Origin: a virus
IMG/VR virus record: IMGVR_UViG_3300010400_000008
Location: 1 to 56,745 of that record
Length of the DNA: 56,745 bases
Strand: one strand, 5' to 3'
Shown here: positions 5,277 to 48,692 of the stretch, in pieces
Position numbering within the stretch: position 1 is the stretch's first letter
How the letters are laid out: each line of letters starts with the position of its first letter
Notes under the pieces: generated by a model
Seen by the model: only the letters and a program-made list of their open reading frames with translations
Databases searched by the model: none
Told to the model about the DNA's origin: nothing
Made by a program: the position numbers and the translations under genes

Positions 5277-6077
5277 ATGGCCGACCCCAATTTCTTTGGC
5301 TTCGACGCGACCGACGGCAAGGTGCAGCTGGCCAGCGCGGCCATCAGCTGTACCTTCACCGACACCGGCGATCTCGTCACCGCGAGCGCCCATGGCCTGG
5401 CCAACGGCACCGTTGTCGTGTTCCAGACCAAGGTCACGACCACGGGCCTGACGACGTTTGTCGAGTACTTCGTGATCAGCAGCACGACCAACACCTTCCA
5501 GATCGCCGCAACCTACGGCGGCAGCGCGGTCGCATTGACGACCGATGGCACCGGCACCTACAAGAGCATCGTCGAGGTCGATCTGCTGTTTCTGAATAAG
5601 GCCACGCCCAGCGCGGACAGCAAAGAGTTCACCTATGAGGGCGACGGCCTCACCCGCAAGCGCAAGAAAACCACCGGCTACCAGGTCGTGCTGGCGGCTG
5701 ACTGCCTGACCCAGGACGCGCGCGAAACGATCTACGCCAAGACGCCCATCACGACCGGCCTGCCGGCTGCCTACACCCGCGCGATCTACGAGGGCGACAC
5801 GACCGAGACCAACGGCGTCTCGTGTGGCATCTGGATCGAGGGCACCGCCACCAAGGTGGACGCCACGACCGGCATCGAGAGCCAGGTCACGACGCGGCGC
5901 TGGTGGCCCGTGGGGACACTCAGCTACGACGGCCCACCCGAGCAGCAGACCGCCGACAAGTTCGGCCTCGACCAGTACACCTTCACGGCCTCGAAAACAT
6001 CGGTGGATATCTGCGGCGGCGCGCTGCCCGCGACCATCCCCAGCGGCGGCGTGTTCCAGGTGTTCATGGAGAAGTAG
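5277..6077 (+). CDS. Major tail protein (tail tube) with inserted Ig-like domain
   Basis: A 266-residue protein with an excellent GAGGAG Shine-Dalgarno 7 bases before ATG. The C-terminal half (YEGDGLTRKRKKTTGYQVVL... FGLDQYTFTASKTSVDICGG) looks like a siphovirus tube protein. Residues about 20-95 form a beta-rich module (VTASAHGLANGTVVVF ... EYFVISSTTNTFQIAA) of the type inserted in many phage tail and fibre proteins. It precedes the chaperones and tape measure. High confidence from synteny. Confidence 0.75.
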   Translation: MADPNFFGFDATDGKVQLASAAISCTFTDTGDLVTASAHGLANGTVVVFQTKVTTTGLTTFVEYFVISSTTNTFQIAATYGGSAVALTTDGTGTYKSIVEVDLLFLNKATPSADSKEFTYEGDGLTRKRKKTTGYQVVLAADCLTQDARETIYAKTPITTGLPAAYTRAIYEGDTTETNGVSCGIWIEGTATKVDATTGIESQVTTRRWWPVGTLSYDGPPEQQTADKFGLDQYTFTASKTSVDICGGALPATIPSGGVFQVFMEK

Positions 6078-6791: not shown

Positions 6792-9197
6792 ATGTCTGGA
6801 TTCGACGCCGGCGCAGCGGTCGCCAAATACACGATCGACTACGGCCAGGCCCGTGAGGCGGGCGCCGCGCTGCACTCGATCTATGCTGGCCTGCGGCAAG
6901 ACAGCGCGGCGCTGGGCACGGCATCGCGCCAGGTCGAGACCGGCTTCACGAGCCAGTCAGCGGCGGCGCGGAAGGCGCTCGCTGACTTCGAGCGGCTCGA
7001 TCGGCAGTACACCGCTATCCGGGATAGCGAGATCCGCGCGGCCCGTGCATCGGGCGACCACGCCAAGGCGCTGGAGCTCATTGATGTGCAGCTGAAAGCC
7101 GCCATCCCCGGCACGACGCGCTATAACACCCTGCTCGCGCAGCAGGCAACGGTGACACGGCAGGCCGCACAGGCCCAAGGCGGCGGCGACGGGCTGAGCG
7201 GCAGTCTGCTCGGCGTTGCCGGATCGCTCGTAGTGGCTGCTGGAGGGTTTACCCTCGTGACGCGCGCCGTCCAGAGCTTCGCCGACGCCTTTGATTTCAA
7301 GGTCAAGCTCGACGCGACCAACCTATCAATCAGCAACCAGCTGCGCGGCGTGCGCGATCTCGGCCAAACCTTTGGCGAGGCGCGGCAGTTCGGCGAGCGC
7401 TACAAAATTACCCAGGCTGAAACCAGCGAGATACTCCAGAACTCTATTGGTGTGTTGCGCTCATCGACGAGCAGCGTTGCCGAGCTCGAGTCGGTCCTGA
7501 TCCGGCTTCAATCCCGCGACCCTTCGAAGCCCATCAGCGAGGCCGCCAGGGCACTGCGCGAGCTCAACACCGGCGATGTCACGACGATCAAGGAGATCTT
7601 CAATATCGGCGCCGCTGATGCGCTCAGAATGAAGAATGAGATCGCCAAAGGCGGCGACGCGGTGCAAGTGCTTTCCGCGTTCCTCACCAGCGCGGGCAAT
7701 GGCATGGAGGTGCTGGATCAGCGGACACAGGGTATCGTCGGCAAGCTCAACGACGCGACGGTTCAGGCTGAGAAGTTCCAGTTGGCGCTGGCGGGCAAGG
7801 CCGGCGGGCCTGGTGCAGTGCTCCTCGACTTCAAGACGAATCTGTTCAAAGAGTTCACTGCTATTTTGAGTGGTGACTTCTCGGAGATCGAGGCCCGCAA
7901 CCGCAAAAACGAGCTGGCGCAGCTGGCCTACAACGACGCAATCGCGCAGGGTAAAAACGATGCCGAGGCCTACGCCGTCGCGCAAGGCATCCTGAACGGT
8001 ACGACCAAGACCGTAGACGATCTGACGCTTGAAGCGGTCAACGCGCTGCGGCAGCGGGTGCTGGCAAGCGGCCCGGCAATCACCGGCATGCAGCAGGAGA
8101 TCAGCGGCGCGATCGCCGCCGGGAACGCTGCGCGCCAGCATGCGGACGCATTGGGCGCGCAAACCGTTAAGACCCTGCAAGCAAATGCAGAGGCGGAGAA
8201 GCAGCGGCGTGTAATGGCTCTGATTGCGCAGCAATCGGGGCTGGTCCAGAAGGGCTTTATCACCCAGGCGCAGGGCGTCGCGGTGTTACGCGGCGAGCTC
8301 GGCAGTGCCGCCGATGAGGCGCTACGGCTCCAGGCGGAGCTGGGGCGCGCGGCGGCTGTTTCTGCCCAGAAAGACGCGCCGACCACCAGCGCCGAGCGGA
8401 GCTTGCTGGCGAAGGCCAACGCCGGTCAGGGCGACGCAAGCGAACGCCTGAAAAAGGAAAAGGCGTTCCGTGATGCACAAAAGCAGTTCCAGCAGGATCT
8501 GCTCCGCTTCGACTCACCCGCCGCGCAGCTGGCCGCCAAGCGGCGCGAGCTGGCCGGCATCGCCGCCGACGACCCCAAGCGCTTCACGGTGCAGCTCGAC
8601 ATCCGCCGCCTCCAGGAGCAGATCGAGGCGGAGCGCCTGCGCACTGCCAAGTCGCATACCTCCGAACTTAATAAGCAGCTCGGCCTGAACGAGTCGATCT
8701 ACGACAGCCAGCAAAAGCAGCTCGACGCGCAGCTGAAGGGGCAGGAGCTGGCCATCCGCAACCGCCAGGAGACCCGCAAAGAGGACCAGGAGCTGCGCAT
8801 CAATCAGAACGCCCTGGCCCACGCCAAAGACCCGCGCTTTCGGGCGGCCGCCCAGGACGCGATCGACCTGATCAACGTCCACCGCCAGCAGCGGGCGCTC
8901 GACCTCGCGCAGAACGGCGCTATCACAGCCGCCCCGATCGTCAACGGGCGCCTGTTGCAGAGCCTGGCCGGCGGCGGCACCCCTGGCGCGCCCGCCAGCG
9001 CCGGCGCCGGTCCCCTGTCGGGCGGGCGCCCAGGCGGCGGCGCCACCCCCGGCGCAGCGGGCGGTATCACCATCATCAATCAATTCCAGCTCGACGGCAA
9101 AACCGTGCTGGAGGTCATCAACCCGCTTATCGCGCAGCAGCTGCTCGACGCCATCACGGGGCGCGGCAACAGCGGCGGCGCGCAGGTGGCCTCATGA
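6792..9197 (+). CDS. Tape measure protein
   Basis: An 801-residue protein following the chaperones, as in nearly all siphoviruses. It has long Ala/Gln/Lys-rich coiled-coil segments, a hydrophobic stretch near residues 135-155 (LLGVAGSLVVAAGGF) for membrane passage, and a Gly/Pro-rich C-terminal region ending in a compact beta domain. By the usual relation of residues to length the tail would be around 120 nm. No lytic domain was seen. Confidence 0.88.
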   Translation: MSGFDAGAAVAKYTIDYGQAREAGAALHSIYAGLRQDSAALGTASRQVETGFTSQSAAARKALADFERLDRQYTAIRDSEIRAARASGDHAKALELIDVQLKAAIPGTTRYNTLLAQQATVTRQAAQAQGGGDGLSGSLLGVAGSLVVAAGGFTLVTRAVQSFADAFDFKVKLDATNLSISNQLRGVRDLGQTFGEARQFGERYKITQAETSEILQNSIGVLRSSTSSVAELESVLIRLQSRDPSKPISEAARALRELNTGDVTTIKEIFNIGAADALRMKNEIAKGGDAVQVLSAFLTSAGNGMEVLDQRTQGIVGKLNDATVQAEKFQLALAGKAGGPGAVLLDFKTNLFKEFTAILSGDFSEIEARNRKNELAQLAYNDAIAQGKNDAEAYAVAQGILNGTTKTVDDLTLEAVNALRQRVLASGPAITGMQQEISGAIAAGNAARQHADALGAQTVKTLQANAEAEKQRRVMALIAQQSGLVQKGFITQAQGVAVLRGELGSAADEALRLQAELGRAAAVSAQKDAPTTSAERSLLAKANAGQGDASERLKKEKAFRDAQKQFQQDLLRFDSPAAQLAAKRRELAGIAADDPKRFTVQLDIRRLQEQIEAERLRTAKSHTSELNKQLGLNESIYDSQQKQLDAQLKGQELAIRNRQETRKEDQELRINQNALAHAKDPRFRAAAQDAIDLINVHRQQRALDLAQNGAITAAPIVNGRLLQSLAGGGTPGAPASAGAGPLSGGRPGGGATPGAAGGITIINQFQLDGKTVLEVINPLIAQQLLDAITGRGNSGGAQVAS

Positions 9198-25740: not shown

Positions 25741-28721
25741 CCCGCCACCTCCATCGCTTCCGCCAGCCGCGCCTGCGCGTCGCCGATCCGCCGCGCCAGA
25801 TCCTCGTAGGCGTCGGTCGGGATCGTCGTGTCGTCGGCGAGAAGGTCGAGCCGGCGCCGGCAGTCGGCCAGCAGGCTGCGCGGGGTTATGCCAGTGTGGC
25901 CCCGCGCGACCTGGCCCTCGGCGGTGTCCAGCATCGAGGCGATCGCCGCCAGCGGGTCGGCCTCCAGCTCCGCCAGCGTCGGCGGTAGGCCGTGCTCGCT
26001 CAGCTCGGCCGGCATGGGCGCGTAGGGGGCTGGCGTCGCCGCCAGGAGCACGGCCACATGCTGCGCCGCCTGCTGCATCTCGTCATAGCGAAACATCGTG
26101 CTGGCCGGCGCCCGCTGAAGCGTGGCCGACATCTGGCCCAGCCAGGCCGCCGCCGCCTCGCGCGGCGTGGGCGTGCCGCTCGCGAAGCGCCGCAAGGTCA
26201 TCGCCAACGAGTGGTACATGGCGAGCGCCTCGTCGTAGGTGTAGTTGCCCGTTGTGCCGTCCGCCCAGACGATGTAGTGCCATACCCCGTCATCGTTGAC
26301 GATCGGCGTGTGGTACTGCGCGCCCAGCTGCTCGCGCAGGTCGTGCTCCTCTTCTCGCGCCGCGCAGGCCCGACAGCGATCGGCTAATGTCCCGCCGATG
26401 TTGTGGCGACCCACGCTCAGGTTGCCGCACGCGCACACCGGCGCCGCGCGCGCCGCATCCAGCCCGGCGAGATAGCCCAGCTCGTTCAGTGACATGTCGC
26501 CCGGCAGGATCTCTCCATCGCGCAGCCAGTTCGCGCCGCTCCAGTCGTAGCCCGCCAGCCACAGCGCGTCGATCAGGTCGTCGGGCGCATCGGGTAGGTC
26601 ATCTTCGTAGAGCCGCGCGCGCCAGGCGAGCAGCGCCAGGTGGGCGAGGTCAGACGCCGCGATCGCCTCGAACTCGTCATGGATCGCCGTGTAGGCGTGG
26701 AGGCCCGCCGGGCAGTCCGGGACGTAGATCACGCGCCAGGCGTGGTCAGTCAGCTCAGCCAGCGGGCGCGCCAGCTGTGTGGCCTCTGCAATCAGCGCGG
26801 CCGGGTCGTCGCCGCTGAGGGCCAGGCCGCAGGCGTGGCGCATGCCGATCGTGGTGTCGCCGTCGTTCCGCCAGATGGTCCAGCCGGCGGGGGCCGTGGG
26901 CAGGGCGGGCGCAATCGGGGCGGCCGGCTGCTCGATCGCCTCCAGCCGGCTCAGCACACCGTGCCAGGTGGCATTGCCGATACCGGGATGCGGCGCGGGC
27001 GGGTACATGGCGTAGCGATCGTCGGGATAGAAGCCGGGCTTGGTTACGCGCCAGCCGAGTGCTTGGAAGCGCGCCAGCACGGCATCAAAATCGGGCGGGA
27101 TGTCGCACGGCCAATCCCCGACCCCGGCGCGTGGTTGAGTCGTTGCCGCCGGCGGTCCATCCTCGCTCGCGCTGACCGCCGCTGCCAGCTCGTCGGGTGT
27201 GGCATCGGGCCGCTCGACGGCGAGTGCCGCCAGCGCGATCACGCCGGCGGCATCGGTGGCGTAGGCGTCGGCGCCCTTGGCCAGCCGGTACTCGGCGCCG
27301 GCGCGGCGTATCGTCCAGCCGCATGCCTCCAGTTGCCGCTCGGCTGCGACGGTGAGCCGGTGGGCAGCGGCGGCCGGCGCCCGCTGCTGTAGCTCCGCAT
27401 GGGTCTGCTCCTGCTTGTGCAACTCGATGCACAGCGACATCCAGCTGGCGACGTTTGCGACGCCGTTCAGGCCAGCATCGAGCAGGCTGTAGCCCTTCTC
27501 ATCCCGGCTGAGTGTCAGCCCGATCGCCTGCGCCCGTGCCTGCGCAGCGGCGTACTCGGCCGGCGTCGGCGCGTTTTTCGCGTTGCTTCGATCGCGGGCC
27601 TGCGCCTCGCTCTGCGCCGTCATCGTGGCGCTGGCGCAACGCGGGCAGAGCAGCTTGCCATCGATCTGCATCGAGCCTGGGGCGCCGTAGGGAGCGCCGC
27701 AGCCGCCTTCGCAGGAACGCGCCGGCGGCTCTATCGGCGGCACGCCGGGCAGGATTTTAATCCGCTGGTCGGTGATGACCAGTTCCTCGTTGCGATACCG
27801 CGCGAGGGTGCCAGGGCCGTTGCGCCCGTGCTTGGTCCAGGCCGCCACCTGACCAGGGTAGGCCGCACGCGACACCACCGCGCAGCCCTCAGCCGAGAGA
27901 AATGCCCCCGCCTTCGATAGCGAGGCGATACAGGCCCAGCGGCGGCCCGCGTAGTCGAACATGATAATCTTGCCCGTCTCGCTGTAGCTCATGGCCACAT
28001 TCTGCGCCGCAGCCCGATTGAGCAGGGAGGTGTCATGCACGATCAGCGGGTTCGGGATGGCAGTAGGGGCGGGGAATCCATCGGCGTGATTGACTGCGCC
28101 ACGCGCCTGATTCGCCGCCGCAATGCCGCTGGTGTCCATCGTGCGCCCATCGGCGGTCTTGCGCGCACTGGACGCGCGTCCAGTGCTCAGCCCGTGGCGC
28201 TCGGCGATCAACGCCACAAACACGTGGCTGACCTTGCAGCGCCGCGCGATCTCGCGGTCACTCCACTGCCCCCACTCCTCGTCTTGTAGTAGCACCAGCA
28301 CCGCGCGCTCCTTGTCGGCCCTGGTGCGCCTCAGGCCGTGATCGGCATTGGCGCCGGCGGCGTAGAGTACCGCGTCGCGCCGCGTGCCCTGGCGCACCTC
28401 GGCCCGGATCGCCGTTGGCGGCGCGGGGCGCTCCAGGGCTTGGAGCTGCGTGTAGGCCTCGAGACGGTGGAAGCCATCGGCCAGCCAGTAGGCCGATCCA
28501 TCGTGAAAGACCACGATCGGCGGGATGCGCTCCAGGCCGTTCTGGACGGAACACAGCTCGCGCATCGCCTCGACATACTCCGCAACGGCCGCCGGGTCGA
28601 GCCCGGCGCGGGCCTGCGTGCCGCCATCGATGCGGATGTGCTCCGGGCGGATAGCGGTGATCAGGGTGGCGGCCGGCGGGTCGGTGGTGGCAACGGCAGG
28701 TTCGATTAAGTCAGTGGTCAT
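25737..28721 (-). CDS. Large multidomain ParB/Srx-like protein
   Basis: Encodes 994 residues from the ATG at 28721 (GAGG 5 bases upstream). Residues about 25-115 resemble the ParB N-terminal domain (IRIDGGTQARAGLDPAAVAEYV; WLADGFHRLEAY). A helix-turn-helix follows near 155-180 (SDREIARRCKVSHVFVALIAE). Near residue 330 there is a C4 zinc site (CEGGCGAPYG ... CPRC). The remaining 650 residues show repeated small alpha/beta units (WTIRRAGAEYRLAKG; WTIWRNDGDTTIGMR). This is far longer than usual phage ParB-like proteins. It may act as a CTP/ATP-dependent DNA-binding protein or nuclease. Confidence 0.65.
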   Translation of the reverse strand: MTTDLIEPAVATTDPPAATLITAIRPEHIRIDGGTQARAGLDPAAVAEYVEAMRELCSVQNGLERIPPIVVFHDGSAYWLADGFHRLEAYTQLQALERPAPPTAIRAEVRQGTRRDAVLYAAGANADHGLRRTRADKERAVLVLLQDEEWGQWSDREIARRCKVSHVFVALIAERHGLSTGRASSARKTADGRTMDTSGIAAANQARGAVNHADGFPAPTAIPNPLIVHDTSLLNRAAAQNVAMSYSETGKIIMFDYAGRRWACIASLSKAGAFLSAEGCAVVSRAAYPGQVAAWTKHGRNGPGTLARYRNEELVITDQRIKILPGVPPIEPPARSCEGGCGAPYGAPGSMQIDGKLLCPRCASATMTAQSEAQARDRSNAKNAPTPAEYAAAQARAQAIGLTLSRDEKGYSLLDAGLNGVANVASWMSLCIELHKQEQTHAELQQRAPAAAAHRLTVAAERQLEACGWTIRRAGAEYRLAKGADAYATDAAGVIALAALAVERPDATPDELAAAVSASEDGPPAATTQPRAGVGDWPCDIPPDFDAVLARFQALGWRVTKPGFYPDDRYAMYPPAPHPGIGNATWHGVLSRLEAIEQPAAPIAPALPTAPAGWTIWRNDGDTTIGMRHACGLALSGDDPAALIAEATQLARPLAELTDHAWRVIYVPDCPAGLHAYTAIHDEFEAIAASDLAHLALLAWRARLYEDDLPDAPDDLIDALWLAGYDWSGANWLRDGEILPGDMSLNELGYLAGLDAARAAPVCACGNLSVGRHNIGGTLADRCRACAAREEEHDLREQLGAQYHTPIVNDDGVWHYIVWADGTTGNYTYDEALAMYHSLAMTLRRFASGTPTPREAAAAWLGQMSATLQRAPASTMFRYDEMQQAAQHVAVLLAATPAPYAPMPAELSEHGLPPTLAELEADPLAAIASMLDTAEGQVARGHTGITPRSLLADCRRRLDLLADDTTIPTDAYEDLARRIGDAQARLAEAMEVAG
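28165..28188. repeat. Palindrome copy inside the ParB-like gene
   Basis: Contains CACTGGACGCGCGTCCAGTG (28166-28185, perfect 20-bp palindrome). Twenty-four bases here are identical to 41806-41829 in the early-gene region, where the palindrome extends to 28 bp. Within the gene it codes for the segment just after the HTH. A candidate binding site for the protein encoded here. Confidence 0.7.
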
Positions 28722-29560
28722 ACAAACCTCGTCTGGTGCTGGCCGGCTGCTGCGGCGTTCAGCCACAGCACCTCGGTGCGCGTATTGCCTTTCTCCGCTT
28801 GCGTTTCGATTTCGCGCGTCTGCCAGTGGCTGAGCCGCGCGGCGTACAGGTCATTGTGGTAGCCCGAGAGCAGCACCGGGCCGGGATGGGCATCCAGTGC
28901 GTCGCATAGGGCCAGGTGATCGGCGTCGGTCATCTCGTGGCGATAGAGCTTCTTCCGGTGGCCGTGGTCGGTGTGGCGCACGTAGGGCGGGTCGGCGTAG
29001 ATCAGCGTCTCTTTGGTTGCGTACCGACCGATCACGGTGAGCGCGGGCAGACACTCGATCTCGGCGTCTTTGAGGAGCGCTGCGGCAATGGCCAGGCGTT
29101 CGGGAAGATCTGCCCAGGTCTCGTAGGTGTCGGCCAGCTGGCGCGCCGTCGCTTTATGGCTTTTGTGGCGCCAGCCATTGCGCGTGCAGATCGTCGTCCC
29201 GTGCGCCTGCCAGGTGGCGACCAGGAAGCGGCGCGCGTCTTCAACGAGGTCGCCACTCTCGACGATCGCGCCCGCCGGGCCGCTCACCGCCAGGTACTCG
29301 GCACGTGACCAGGGCGTGAACGCAACGGCGCGAATGAGATCTGTCTGGCGCTCCCGCAGCGCGCGAAAAAACAAATTGATATAGCAGTCGCGATCGTTCA
29401 GCACCAGGTGGCGCGGCCGATACCACAGATTAAGCGCGAACGCGCCCGAGCCGCAGTACGCATCGACGACCCGCATGCACTGTGGCACGTGGGATTGCAG
29501 CCAGTCGGCCAGGCGCCACTTCGCACCGGGATACTTCAGGATGGCGTCAACAGTGCTCAT
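28718..29560 (-). CDS. dam: DNA adenine methylase (Dam/D12 class)
   Basis: Encodes 280 residues from the ATG at 29560, coupled by ATGA at both ends. Motif X-like KYPGAKW is at residues 9-15, the SAM-binding DAYCGSGAFALN at about 33-44, and catalytic DPPY at 190-193. These define the alpha-class N6-adenine methylases, many of which methylate GATC. Specificity is not proven. Its operon includes the replication genes and the origin there is packed with GATC, so methylation control or protection of the origin is plausible. Confidence 0.88.
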   Translation of the reverse strand: MSTVDAILKYPGAKWRLADWLQSHVPQCMRVVDAYCGSGAFALNLWYRPRHLVLNDRDCYINLFFRALRERQTDLIRAVAFTPWSRAEYLAVSGPAGAIVESGDLVEDARRFLVATWQAHGTTICTRNGWRHKSHKATARQLADTYETWADLPERLAIAAALLKDAEIECLPALTVIGRYATKETLIYADPPYVRHTDHGHRKKLYRHEMTDADHLALCDALDAHPGPVLLSGYHNDLYAARLSHWQTREIETQAEKGNTRTEVLWLNAAAAGQHQTRFV

Positions 29561-29871
29561 AGCTCCAGCTCCAGTTGCCCGCTGTCGACGCGCTTCCGCC
29601 GGCGGGTCGCGGCGGCGTGCGTGGCATGCATTGCGGCGTCGTAGCGCAGGTGGCAAGCGCTGCACCAGCCGCGCAGGTTCTCCCGCCGGCAGTCGGCCGG
29701 GTCGTGATTGAGGTGGGCCACGCTCATCGTGCGCTTGTGTGTGTCGAAGGGCTCGTCGGGCGCGCGGCACTGCATGCCGCAGCTCTGGCAGATCCAGTTG
29801 GCCGCGACCTTGACCGCCAGCGCGATGGCGTCCCAGTCGGGCGGGTAGGCGGCTTTATCCTTGACCGGCAT
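29557..29871 (-). CDS. HNH-type endonuclease-like protein
   Basis: Encodes 104 residues from the ATG at 29871 (GGAGGG 8 bases upstream). CQSCGMQC then SVAHLNHDPADCRRENLRGW and CSACHLRYD give the HNH signature with zinc cysteines. It starts a 4-base overlap with the Dam gene, a pairing reminiscent of modification plus cleavage, but small HNH proteins next to methylases in phages can also be involved in packaging or recombination. Confidence 0.7.
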   Translation of the reverse strand: MPVKDKAAYPPDWDAIALAVKVAANWICQSCGMQCRAPDEPFDTHKRTMSVAHLNHDPADCRRENLRGWCSACHLRYDAAMHATHAAATRRRKRVDSGQLELEL

Positions 29872-30320: not shown

Positions 30321-30707
30321 CTACGCCGCCTGGGGCGTGGCCACGCCCCACAGCGAGAGCGAGAGCCGCAGCTGCGGCGTGATGGCCAGCGGCTGCCGCG
30401 TGGGCGCGGCCGGCGGGGCGGGCGTGTGGCCGACCGCCGCCTGAAGCGCCCGGAGGCGAGCGGCAAAGGCCGGATCGTCTCTGGCCAGGCGCCCACAGCG
30501 CTCGGTGTAATAACACACCGTCGTGTGGTCGCGTCCTAAGAGCAGGCCGATCTCGACCACGGTGTAGCCGTGGTCGCGCAAGATCGCCGTGATGGCGATG
30601 CGCGCCTGGGTGATACGGGCCCGGCGCCCGCGCCCGCTGCGCAGGTCGGCGACGGGCACGGCGAACAGCGCTGCGGCGGCGGTGATGACGGTGGCGGGGT
30701 CGATCAT
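30321..30707 (-). CDS. Stand-alone DnaA domain IV-like DNA-binding protein
   Basis: A 128-residue protein. Residues about 8-78 match the C-terminal DNA-binding domain of DnaA: ARITQARIAITAILRDHGYT, VVEIGLLLGRDHTTVCYYTE; RDHTTV is the DnaA signature contacting the DnaA box. Domains I-III (oligomerisation, ATPase) are absent. The tail is Pro/Ala-rich. It is coupled by ATGA to the helicase-loader gene. It might bind DnaA boxes in the phage or host origin, either recruiting or blocking initiation. Confidence 0.82.
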   Translation of the reverse strand: MIDPATVITAAAALFAVPVADLRSGRGRRARITQARIAITAILRDHGYTVVEIGLLLGRDHTTVCYYTERCGRLARDDPAFAARLRALQAAVGHTPAPPAAPTRQPLAITPQLRLSLSLWGVATPQAA

Positions 30708-31624
30708 GTCACCACCTCGTCGCGGTCCCAGGGGTCGAGCTCGTGGGCGATCGGCCGCACATCGGCGCCGCCCATCTCGACCAGGTGAAAGCGCCCATCG
30801 CGGATGCGGCTGGCCAGGAAGCTGGGGATGCGCGCCGCGCCATCCAGGTTGTAGCCGATGATCGTGCCGTACTGCGCCCGGCCCTGGTAGCGCGCCAGGA
30901 AGATGGCGTTCAGCACATCATCGACGAACGGGCTATCGCGGATCTTGTCCAGCTCATCGACCGCCAGGATCGGCGCTGCAATCAGGCGCCGCAGCCGCTC
31001 GCCATATAGCTCGGTGCCGATCGCGTCCCTGAGTTCGTTGAGCAGCTCGGGCATCATCACGTAGCGGCCGTAGATGCCCCGATCGGCCAGGTGGTTGAGC
31101 GCGGCGTAGATCAGCATCGTTTTGCCCACGCCATAGCCGCCGGCCAGGGTCAGCCAGCCGCGCGGCTGCACGATAAAGGCCCGAATCTTGGTACGGGCGG
31201 CGTCCTGCTCCGGCACGCGGCGGATGCGGCCGTTGGTCAAGCGCACGTCGTCGGCCTCCTCGGGCAGATTGCGCCATTTCTTCGCGCGCGCCTGGCCCGC
31301 CGCACAGGCGCAGGGGATGAGCGCCGGCGCATCGTCGCCATCGCCAAAGGTGTCCAGGATGACTAACCTATCGGCGCGCGCGGTGGCCTGCCGCTCCAGC
31401 AGGGTGCCGTGGCCGCTACACCGGCAGGTCGTCGTCGTCAAGCGGGCCGGCGGCTTCGATCTGGGCGAGCAGGGCGTCGTAGTCGACCGGGGCGGCGCTG
31501 CTGGCAGCTCGCGGCGGCCGATCATATCCACGACCACGTCGCCCATCGCCACCATGGGGGCGCTTGGGGGGTCGCTGATCATCAGCAGGTCGCTCGGGGC
31601 GATCCGCAGTATCTTGTTGTTCAT
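30704..31624 (-). CDS. DnaC/IstB-like AAA+ helicase loader
   Basis: Encodes 306 residues if started at the ATG at 31624. Cys pairs CRC and PCAC (about residues 67-106) form the zinc-type N-terminus common in phage DnaC proteins. Walker A GGYGVGKT is at 162-169, Walker B ILAVDELDK near 219-227. It should load the host DnaB helicase at the phage origin (lambda P role). The true start is uncertain: 31416-31624 is overlapped in another frame by the initiator C-terminus. The open frame extends further up to 32038 without a stop. Confidence 0.78.
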   Translation of the reverse strand: MNNKILRIAPSDLLMISDPPSAPMVAMGDVVVDMIGRRELPAAPPRSTTTPCSPRSKPPARLTTTTCRCSGHGTLLERQATARADRLVILDTFGDGDDAPALIPCACAAGQARAKKWRNLPEEADDVRLTNGRIRRVPEQDAARTKIRAFIVQPRGWLTLAGGYGVGKTMLIYAALNHLADRGIYGRYVMMPELLNELRDAIGTELYGERLRRLIAAPILAVDELDKIRDSPFVDDVLNAIFLARYQGRAQYGTIIGYNLDGAARIPSFLASRIRDGRFHLVEMGGADVRPIAHELDPWDRDEVVT

Positions 31625-32576
31625 GGCTTTGTCGTGCCTTTCTTCGTTCATAGGCCGGGGTGTCGCTGCCATAGCTGGCCGTGTCGCGCCAGCGATCGAG
31701 CGTCGATCGGATCGCCTTGACCGATCGGATGTCGCGCGAGATCGCCACCGCCAGAATCGCGCGGCCGACCCAGTAGAGGCCGTGGCCGCCGGTCGATTCG
31801 TTGTGTGCCAGCGCCATGGCGGCCAGCTGGCGCAGATCGAGCGGTCGCGGGTGCGGGCAGGCGTCGCGCCAGAGGTCGACCGGGTGCGCGGGCAGCGGCA
31901 GCTCCCCCTCGGGTGGCGGGGGCGGCGGAGCCGTGTTTGGTGGCAGGAGCTCCAGGGCCGCCTGCTGTTTTTTCGCGCGCGCGCGATCTCCTTCCTTCCT
32001 TCCTTCCTTCCTTCCTTCCAACGTGATCGATCGATCACGGTCGCCGTGATCCTTTGATAACGGTTGCCGTGATCGATCGATCACGGTGTCTGTGATCGAT
32101 CGATCACGGTCGCCGTGATCCTTTGATAACGGTTGCCGTGATCGATCGATCACGGTGAGATCCATCTCGGTTTGCAGTTCATGGCGTCCCGATGGCTTGC
32201 GCAAATTGCGTGTGCCGAGCTTGGCGAGATGCACCTGCGCGTCGCGATTCGAGGCGTCTAAAATCGATTCCCACGGGATTCGGTAGATCGGACGGTCAAA
32301 CTTGCCACCTTTGACCTCCTCGTACCCGACGATCTCGAGGAGATTCAGGGCGACCAGGTCGGTCAGCCAGCCCGTGACTCGGGGGTAGGCGCTGGTCCCC
32401 ATCTCGTCGGCGATCTCGCGGCTGCCGAACGCCGTGCGCTCGGTCAGGTCCATCAGTGCGCGGATCGCCAGCCAGCAGGCCAGCTGGTGCGGCGTGCAGC
32501 GCTTGCGCACCACGAACGGCACGCCGGTTTCGACCGCACGGTCCAGAATGTCACGGAGCATGCCGTGTGTTTTCAT
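31416..32576 (-). CDS. Replication initiator with internal origin (lambda O-like)
   Basis: Encodes 386 residues from the ATG at 32576. The N-terminal 130 residues are a winged helix (FVVRKRCTPHQLACWLAIRA; FGSREIADEMGTSAYPRVTG; LNLLEIVGYEEVKGGKF). Residues about 141-190 are encoded by the iteron array and contain two copies of a 23-residue repeat VIDRSRQPLSKDHGDRDRSI..., then EGRKEGRKEG encoded by the TTCC tract. A helical C-terminal domain (LRQLAAMALAHNESTGGHGL) probably binds the loader made from the next gene. Order initiator-origin-loader equals lambda O-ori-P. Confidence 0.78.
   Translation of the reverse strand: MKTHGMLRDILDRAVETGVPFVVRKRCTPHQLACWLAIRALMDLTERTAFGSREIADEMGTSAYPRVTGWLTDLVALNLLEIVGYEEVKGGKFDRPIYRIPWESILDASNRDAQVHLAKLGTRNLRKPSGRHELQTEMDLTVIDRSRQPLSKDHGDRDRSITDTVIDRSRQPLSKDHGDRDRSITLEGRKEGRKEGDRARAKKQQAALELLPPNTAPPPPPPEGELPLPAHPVDLWRDACPHPRPLDLRQLAAMALAHNESTGGHGLYWVGRAILAVAISRDIRSVKAIRSTLDRWRDTASYGSDTPAYERRKARQSHEQQDTADRPERPADDQRPPKRPHGGDGRRGRGYDRPPRAASSAAPVDYDALLAQIEAAGPLDDDDLPV
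31990..32019. repeat. Tetranucleotide tract (CCTT)7.5 within the initiator gene
   Basis: Seven and a half uninterrupted CCTT units (AAGG on the coding strand) next to the iterons. It codes for EGRK repeats in every frame. Such tracts change length by slippage. Loss of one unit (or gain of two) would move translation into the frame that is open from 32038 to the end of the loader gene at 30704. Confidence 0.95.
32022..32154. other. Replication origin: six iterons at 23-bp period
   Basis: Iterons of 18 bp start at 32022, 32045, 32068, 32091, 32114 and 32137. Four are the palindrome CGTGATCGATCGATCACG (first base T at 32091) and two are CGTGATCCTTTGATAACG, in order P-D-P-P-D-P, separated by 5-bp linkers. 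Each P holds three GATC sites and each D one, 14 in all. The site lies in the initiator gene as in lambda, so it is almost certainly the initiator-binding part of the origin. Confidence 0.88.
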
Positions 32577-47940: not shown

Positions 47941-48692
47941 TGCCGACGATCGACCGCACCACCTATCAAAAGGCTACGCGGCCGATTGGCTCGGGCTACG
48001 ACCGCCGTGTGAAGGGCGTGACGCCGCGCAAGCTGGTTATCCACACGACCAACGGCAATCGCGGCAGCAGCTTCGCGGCCGAGTGCCGCTACTGCGTCAA
48101 CAGCAACGCGATCGGCATCCACTATGAGATCGGCAAGGAGGGCCAGATCGTCGAGCAGCTCGATCCCATGTGGCGTGCCTGGCACGTCGGCCGCAGTCTG
48201 CCGGGCTGGGGCAACAACGACGCGATCGGCGTCGAGTGCCATCACGCCGTTGGTGAGGCCTGGACACCCGCGCAGCACGATGCGCTCACCTGGCTGACCA
48301 AGGAGCACCTGATGCCGCGCTACGGCATCACGCCCGCCGCTATCGACACCCACCGCGCGGTGGCGCTGCCCCACGGCCGCAAAGTCGATCCGAGCGACTG
48401 GTCCGATGCATGGTTCTACGCCTGGCGCGCGGCGCTCAGTGGCCTGGCCTATGTGCCGCAGCCCGCGCGCCTGGCCAGCTACATCACCACGACCGCCGTC
48501 AACGTGCGGCAGGGGCCGAGCCGCGCGAAACCGATCGCCTTGGATGGCCATTGCGTGTTAGCGAAAGATTTTGCGTTCCAGAGCGATGTGACGGTGCAGG
48601 GCGAGGCGATCGGCGGCAACGGCACATGGGTGCATCTGGTCGTCCCGGCCGCCTGGGGCTTCGTGCATAGCTCGTGTGTGAGGCGGGTATGA
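47940..48692 (+). CDS. Endolysin II: N-acetylmuramoyl-L-alanine amidase with SH3b
   Basis: A 250-residue protein. Amidase_2/PGRP-type domain with LVIHTTNG (first zinc His, residue 35), IGIHYEIGKEGQIVEQ, NDAIGVECHH, and DTHRAVALPHGRKVDPSDW. Residues about 185-250 are an SH3b wall-binding domain (TAVNVRQGPSRAKPIALDGH). It overlaps the glucosaminidase stop by one base (TGATG). Two enzymes cutting glycan and stem peptide act together. Confidence 0.88.
   Translation: MPTIDRTTYQKATRPIGSGYDRRVKGVTPRKLVIHTTNGNRGSSFAAECRYCVNSNAIGIHYEIGKEGQIVEQLDPMWRAWHVGRSLPGWGNNDAIGVECHHAVGEAWTPAQHDALTWLTKEHLMPRYGITPAAIDTHRAVALPHGRKVDPSDWSDAWFYAWRAALSGLAYVPQPARLASYITTTAVNVRQGPSRAKPIALDGHCVLAKDFAFQSDVTVQGEAIGGNGTWVHLVVPAAWGFVHSSCVRRV

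Follow-up and report, generated by a model that had tools for sequence, protein, structure and literature searches.

Closest described systems

According to the available text of PMC5835720, sequence-specific binding of double-stranded DNA by DnaA is the task of its domain IV alone. This domain (PF08299) has been solved with its DnaA box for E. coli (1j1v) and M. tuberculosis (3pvp). Stand-alone phage domain IV is a kind of protein already known by name and common in phage sequence, since a search of BFVD with an E limit of 0.001 gave 30 matches, many of them called 'DnaA C-terminal'. In BFVD and in the named phage loci L002-L009, the phage proteins called 'chromosomal replication initiator, DnaA C-terminal' consist of one domain IV only, measure about 90-200 aa and are often encoded among replication or recombination genes. 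The accessible text of PMC6811365 lists 'DnaA' among the proteins common to all HTVC010P-related phage genomes, and another Pelagibacter phage, HTVC203P, encodes a 177-aa stand-alone version; the available parts of PMC9437464 and PMC6813254 have no bearing on stand-alone phage domain IV. In the literature covered, which includes few subscription papers, we found no functional study of such a protein.

Two gene arrangements are of interest as well. In the lambda O/P module the origin repeats lie within the initiator gene, which is followed by the helicase-loader gene. In Chloroflexota chromosomes (L230, L233, L235, L236 and L238) a protein with an initiator-like C-terminal part and a DnaC-type loader are encoded with a 4-base overlap; this pair, related to that of the viral locus L012, comes without a domain IV gene, and full-length DnaA is encoded elsewhere.

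A DnaA domain IV encoded on its own

The window, by which we mean the whole stretch of 56,745 bp analysed (a virus record of IMG/VR), carries head, portal and terminase genes, in agreement with the original prediction that the gene studied here is encoded by a phage. There are also two integrases, and therefore the phage is probably temperate. The features considered below are:

28718-29563, minus strand: D12-class adenine methyltransferase, downstream of the cassette (Pfam)
30321-30707, minus strand: stand-alone DnaA domain IV protein P0001, 128 aa (Pfam, AlphaFold2 model, structure comparison)
30704-31624, minus strand: DnaC/DnaI-type AAA+ helicase loader P0002 (phrog_50 match; start codon uncertain)
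31416-32576, minus strand: initiator-like protein P0003, whose gene lies upstream of the loader gene and runs into it (assigned solely from position and the repeats within)
32022-32157, no strand assigned: six 23-bp GATC-rich dyad repeats, iteron-like, within the initiator-like gene (repeat analysis, GATC density)

P0001 is DnaA domain IV alone, without the other DnaA domains. It belongs to Bac_DnaA_C (PF08299; E 2.2e-9, 37.6 bits against the curated cut-off of 31.5), is the sole match to this family in the whole record, and carries the motif GRDHTTV at residues 58-64. Pfam reported no AAA+ domain with an ATP site in the protein, and even the stop-to-stop frame has only 198 aa. The scores stayed below the cut-offs of the NCBIfam models for the full DnaA initiator (TIGR00362, 28.7 against 343.9 bits) and for short DnaA-C-like hypothetical proteins (PRK06030, 19.9 against 136 bits, best of three models). 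Residues 1-95 form the folded DNA-binding domain and are followed by a proline-rich tail with lower model confidence. Compared with DnaA, P0001 lacks domains I-III, and so has neither the ATPase nor the self-assembly domain, and the tail is extra.

Among solved structures, the top phmmer matches of P0001 were domain IV of M. tuberculosis and E. coli DnaA. An AlphaFold2 model, computed from 30 aligned proteins (P0001 and 29 from viral loci), reached a mean pLDDT of 89.6 and contains the helix-turn-helix and basic loop of domain IV. VIA-align matched it to 1j1v with Z 16.3 (rmsd 1.3, 92 residues) and ranked DnaA structures at entries 1-6 (Z 10.7-16.3), the next entry having a Z of 6.6, while the TM-score with 3pvp was 0.89 by target length. 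Domain IV with RDHTTV and without AAA+, as read from the letters in the original prediction, is thus confirmed by the family search, and the predicted structure matches domain IV as well. The GC content at the three codon positions of the gene (0.72/0.59/0.91) is similar to that of the terminase gene (0.72/0.49/0.85).

Occurrence and ancestry of stand-alone domain IV genes

Single-sequence scans of viral contigs returned no close kin of P0001 or P0002, and P0001 had no match among named phages. When viral contigs were scanned with a profile, 600 or more stretches matched, and at least 40 loci were confirmed; in 39 of these 40 the frame measures 63-255 aa (two reach a contig edge), and in L023 it measures 365 aa. 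With domain IV of M. tuberculosis as query, 41 named-phage records matched. We examined nine of these: a stand-alone protein (106-191 aa) is encoded in eight, and the ninth is a stretch of host DNA with dnaA-dnaN-recF. Separate domain IV proteins had been thought to be rarely described in phages; in sequence and by name they are common, though we found no study of one.

We also looked at 91 neighbouring genes on the same strand, selected by hand according to their size and distance. They come from 37 loci; 52 loci had been reduced to 43 distinct ones, and six of these, including L012, contributed no genes. Among the matches listed, most of the 91 had no informative one, and those with Pfam matches included DnaB helicase (4), HNH (4), YqaJ recombinase (3) and DnaA domain I (2). 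The last two are initiator-like proteins ending in domain I: in L031 (670-2552) the gene is coupled to the domain IV gene by TGATG, and in L013 (3383-6294) it lies a few genes upstream of domain IV, with a domain I score (23.8) just below the cut-off of 24.6.

A tree of domain IV (116 rows, 91 columns; two host rows without the motif were dropped and L225 was not included) grouped the window with L012 (support 97/80), and both with three loci from bacterial genomes, L222-L224, in a single clade (97/92) that excludes host Chloroflexota DnaA. The host DnaA rows formed a clade of 67 (99/85), with two other host rows elsewhere. This separation indicates that the window gene did not arise recently as a piece of host dnaA; the deeper placement is unsure, given the few columns and the long window branch (1.46). 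Compared with the phage 'DnaA C-terminal' proteins, the window cassette group is a clade of its own, and a domain IV gene coupled to a DnaC-like loader is an exception.

The replication cassette of the window

The gene order in the window is an initiator-like gene with internal GATC-rich repeats, the loader, and domain IV. On the longer ORF, P0002 matches phrog_50, 'DnaC-like helicase loader' (E 1.2e-17). The domain IV gene had been placed 4 bases from the loader gene, but the two in fact share 4 bases (ATGA), the loader stop TGA occupying 30704-30706 and the P0001 start ATG 30705-30707. A simple origin of the two genes by the splitting of one dnaA was rejected, because P0002 best matches DnaC/DnaI/IstB types and not DnaA.

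The initiator role of P0003 is assigned from its position and internal repeats only. P0003 had no family match and no phmmer hit among the fetched loci; its comparison with the initiators of the other loci gave an hhalign probability of 0.8 and weak blastp matches, so that kinship was not found, and its structure model was unusable (pLDDT 41.8). Nowhere in the window is GATC as dense as in the repeats at 32022-32157, with 15 copies in 138 bp where the mean is 1.3, and the phage origin probably lies in these repeats. Repeats within the initiator gene, with a loader gene after it, recall lambda O/P, a likeness of arrangement; in the window, however, the loader is of the DnaC/DnaI AAA+ type and a domain IV gene has been added.

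Adjoining the 23-bp repeats, inside the initiator-like gene, the 4-base repeat TCCT occurs in 7.8 copies (31989-32019). The loader frame is open to 32038, and slippage at the TCCT run could in principle join the initiator and loader frames. We dropped the suspicion of a frameshift because the phage L084 shows a similar long out-of-frame overlap of initiator and loader (5608-5777; window 31416-31624), of about 170-210 bases with start codons not proven; this long overlap seems to be conserved between the two phages.

Recurrence of the cassette and its probable hosts

Five other loci show the window order or a version of it that lacks the loader. In the viral locus L012, the repeat-bearing end of an initiator gene is followed by a loader (4-base overlap), a small ORF and a 91-aa domain IV. 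L225 has an initiator-like gene, a loader, domain IV (ATGA overlap) and a D12 methyltransferase, and its domain IV gene (7835-8215) is broken by an in-frame TGA in a cassette that is otherwise similar. In L222, L223 and L224, from two genomes, a repeat-bearing initiator is directly followed by domain IV, with no loader. Domain IV overlaps the preceding gene by 4 bases in L222, L224 and L225, and more deeply in L223. Downstream of the cassette, L222 (6260-7954) and L223 (5741-7189) carry a large P-loop ATPase gene that looks HerA/FtsK-like by eye, with no clear Pfam match. These two elements are perhaps not phages but conjugative or integrated plasmids; the domain IV of L222 had no match among plasmids.

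In all five loci, as in the window, the densest GATC stretch lies within the initiator gene. The dyads read GTGATC-N4-GATCAC in the window and L012, CACGATC-N4-GATCGTG in L222 and L224, and CACGATCATTTGATCGTG in L223. Genes for D12-like adenine methyltransferases lie downstream in the window, L225 and L084 (in L084 assigned by the resemblance of the ORF to that of L225). Taken side by side, the dyads of the six elements and these methyltransferases raise the possibility of methylation-timed origins.

We searched the class around Candidatus Chloroploca for domain IV, with matches in 139 of 150 genomes. The short frames above the cut-off (99-137 aa) numbered four (two in G113, one each in G176 and G192), and all four lie in such cassettes. 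The search also returned host-scoring frames of 173-249 aa in G120, G124, G156, G184 and G196, a 328-aa frame (L226) and a frame with an internal TGA (L227). An initiator profile run on 158 genomes of the class gave three full-length matches (two in G113, one in G176), which had already been found via domain IV and so provide no independent support. Eight further matches cover the C-terminal part only, and three more lie on the strand opposite to the repeats. A loader gene was recognised as the next gene in five of the eight (the chromosomal pairs named above), and a domain IV gene follows in none. Because these pairs lack domain IV, initiator and loader look like a host-like core to which domain IV was added in mobile elements.

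A profile of the window and L012 loaders, scanned against one genome per species, led to 219 confirmed loader relatives, and by title nearly all of the best 80 of the 219 are Chloroflexota, with one from Proteobacteria. The host of the window virus is therefore probably also a member of Chloroflexota, an assignment that is strongest for L012, whose loader was the first query sequence. The window terminase had no relatives in genome contigs and six in viral contigs; domain IV was found in none of the five of these that were searched, all possibly partial records.

DnaA boxes and the link with the loader

Canonical DnaA boxes as the local target of P0001 found no support. The 3.7-kb window cassette contains one site at one mismatch (0.57 expected), none of the six cassettes clearly exceeds expectation, and the whole window holds 19 sites where 14.6 are expected, which is no enrichment. 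Across 50 loci with stand-alone genes, six perfect boxes lie within 1.5 kb of the gene (165 kb in total) and 18 elsewhere (326 kb; p 0.52). The only perfect TTATCCACA box of the phage is at 48037-48045, roughly 17 kb away from the gene for P0001.

The phage with the loader closest to that of the window is L084 (57% identity). Its initiator gene also holds a GATC-rich stretch (7 in 138 bp, mean 1.8), and its 40-kb record has no match to Bac_DnaA_C. A domain IV gene occurs in one of 38 loader-bearing viral records (L012), many of which are fragments, and a clear phrog_50 loader in one of 48 domain IV records (again L012, the window not being counted), with two weaker matches. Given the L084 cassette and this rare co-occurrence, the domain IV gene is an optional helper and not an essential partner of this type of loader; recognition of the GATC repeats probably falls to another factor or to several proteins. 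The suggestion that P0001 recruits the loader to the repeats is affected in part: the conserved cassette fits a protein that acts on the phage repeats together with the phage loader, but direct recruitment is not supported, since the closely related loader and the GATC-rich stretch of L084 come without a domain IV gene.

Possible roles of P0001

We consider P0001 to be an accessory replication protein of the phage that would bind the phage replication region and support or tune initiation, and give this reading a probability of about one half. P0001 would be made by coupled translation with the helicase loader, and its domain IV would bind specific sites in the phage's own replication region. 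There it would help to place or to regulate the assembly of initiator, loader and helicase at the phage origin, and would work without the nucleotide switch of full DnaA. DNA binding by P0001, the site of binding and the effect on the phage's own origin are what we infer.

DnaA also acts as a transcription factor, and it is possible, though on the less probable side, that P0001 does the same, its domain IV binding sites in the replication operon and tuning the expression of initiator and loader or a lysogeny switch. Such a regulator would fit the location of the window repeats inside a gene of the operon itself and the persistence of the cassette where domain IV is absent (L084 and the loader-bearing viral records), but translation coupled to initiator and loader suggests that domain IV is co-produced with the replication proteins.

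Alternatively, as was also suggested originally, free domain IV might occupy the DnaA boxes of the host oriC, exclude host DnaA and stop or delay initiation, which would free helicase and nucleotides for the phage. The GRDHTT recognition motif and the fold are intact, and with a phage cassette devoid of canonical boxes of its own, the host would hold most of the canonical targets. However, the gene belongs to replication cassettes, some of them in elements that reside in bacterial genomes and in which a lasting arrest of the host would do harm, its sequence falls outside the host DnaA clade, and the integrases point to a temperate phage. We regard such a decoy as unlikely, and less likely than a protein that helps or tunes the phage's own replication. 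That P0001 is a non-functional remnant of a captured dnaA is very improbable: the gene is small, variably present and interrupted by a stop in L225, but the domain is intact, the recognition motif is conserved, the third-position GC bias is strong and the gene recurs in a clade of its own.

Beyond the accessory role that we favour for P0001, a wider and rather doubtful reading is that DnaA has been dismantled in several lineages of phages and integrated elements, with domain IV, domain I (at the end of the L031 and L013 initiators) and DnaC-type AAA+ loading on separate polypeptides, often in one operon, and with a GATC-dyad origin that lies in the initiator gene and may be timed by an adenine methyltransferase of the element itself. 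Domain IV would then read the origin, domain I would contact the helicase and the DnaC-type AAA+ protein would carry out ATP-driven loading. If this is true, free domain IV would serve as a targeting subunit that can be exchanged. Although small domain IV proteins occur widely in phages, a functional study of them was not found, and the cassette of these Chloroflexota elements offers a defined setting in which to ask whether the DNA-reading part of DnaA serves initiation apart from the ATPase or is used against the host.
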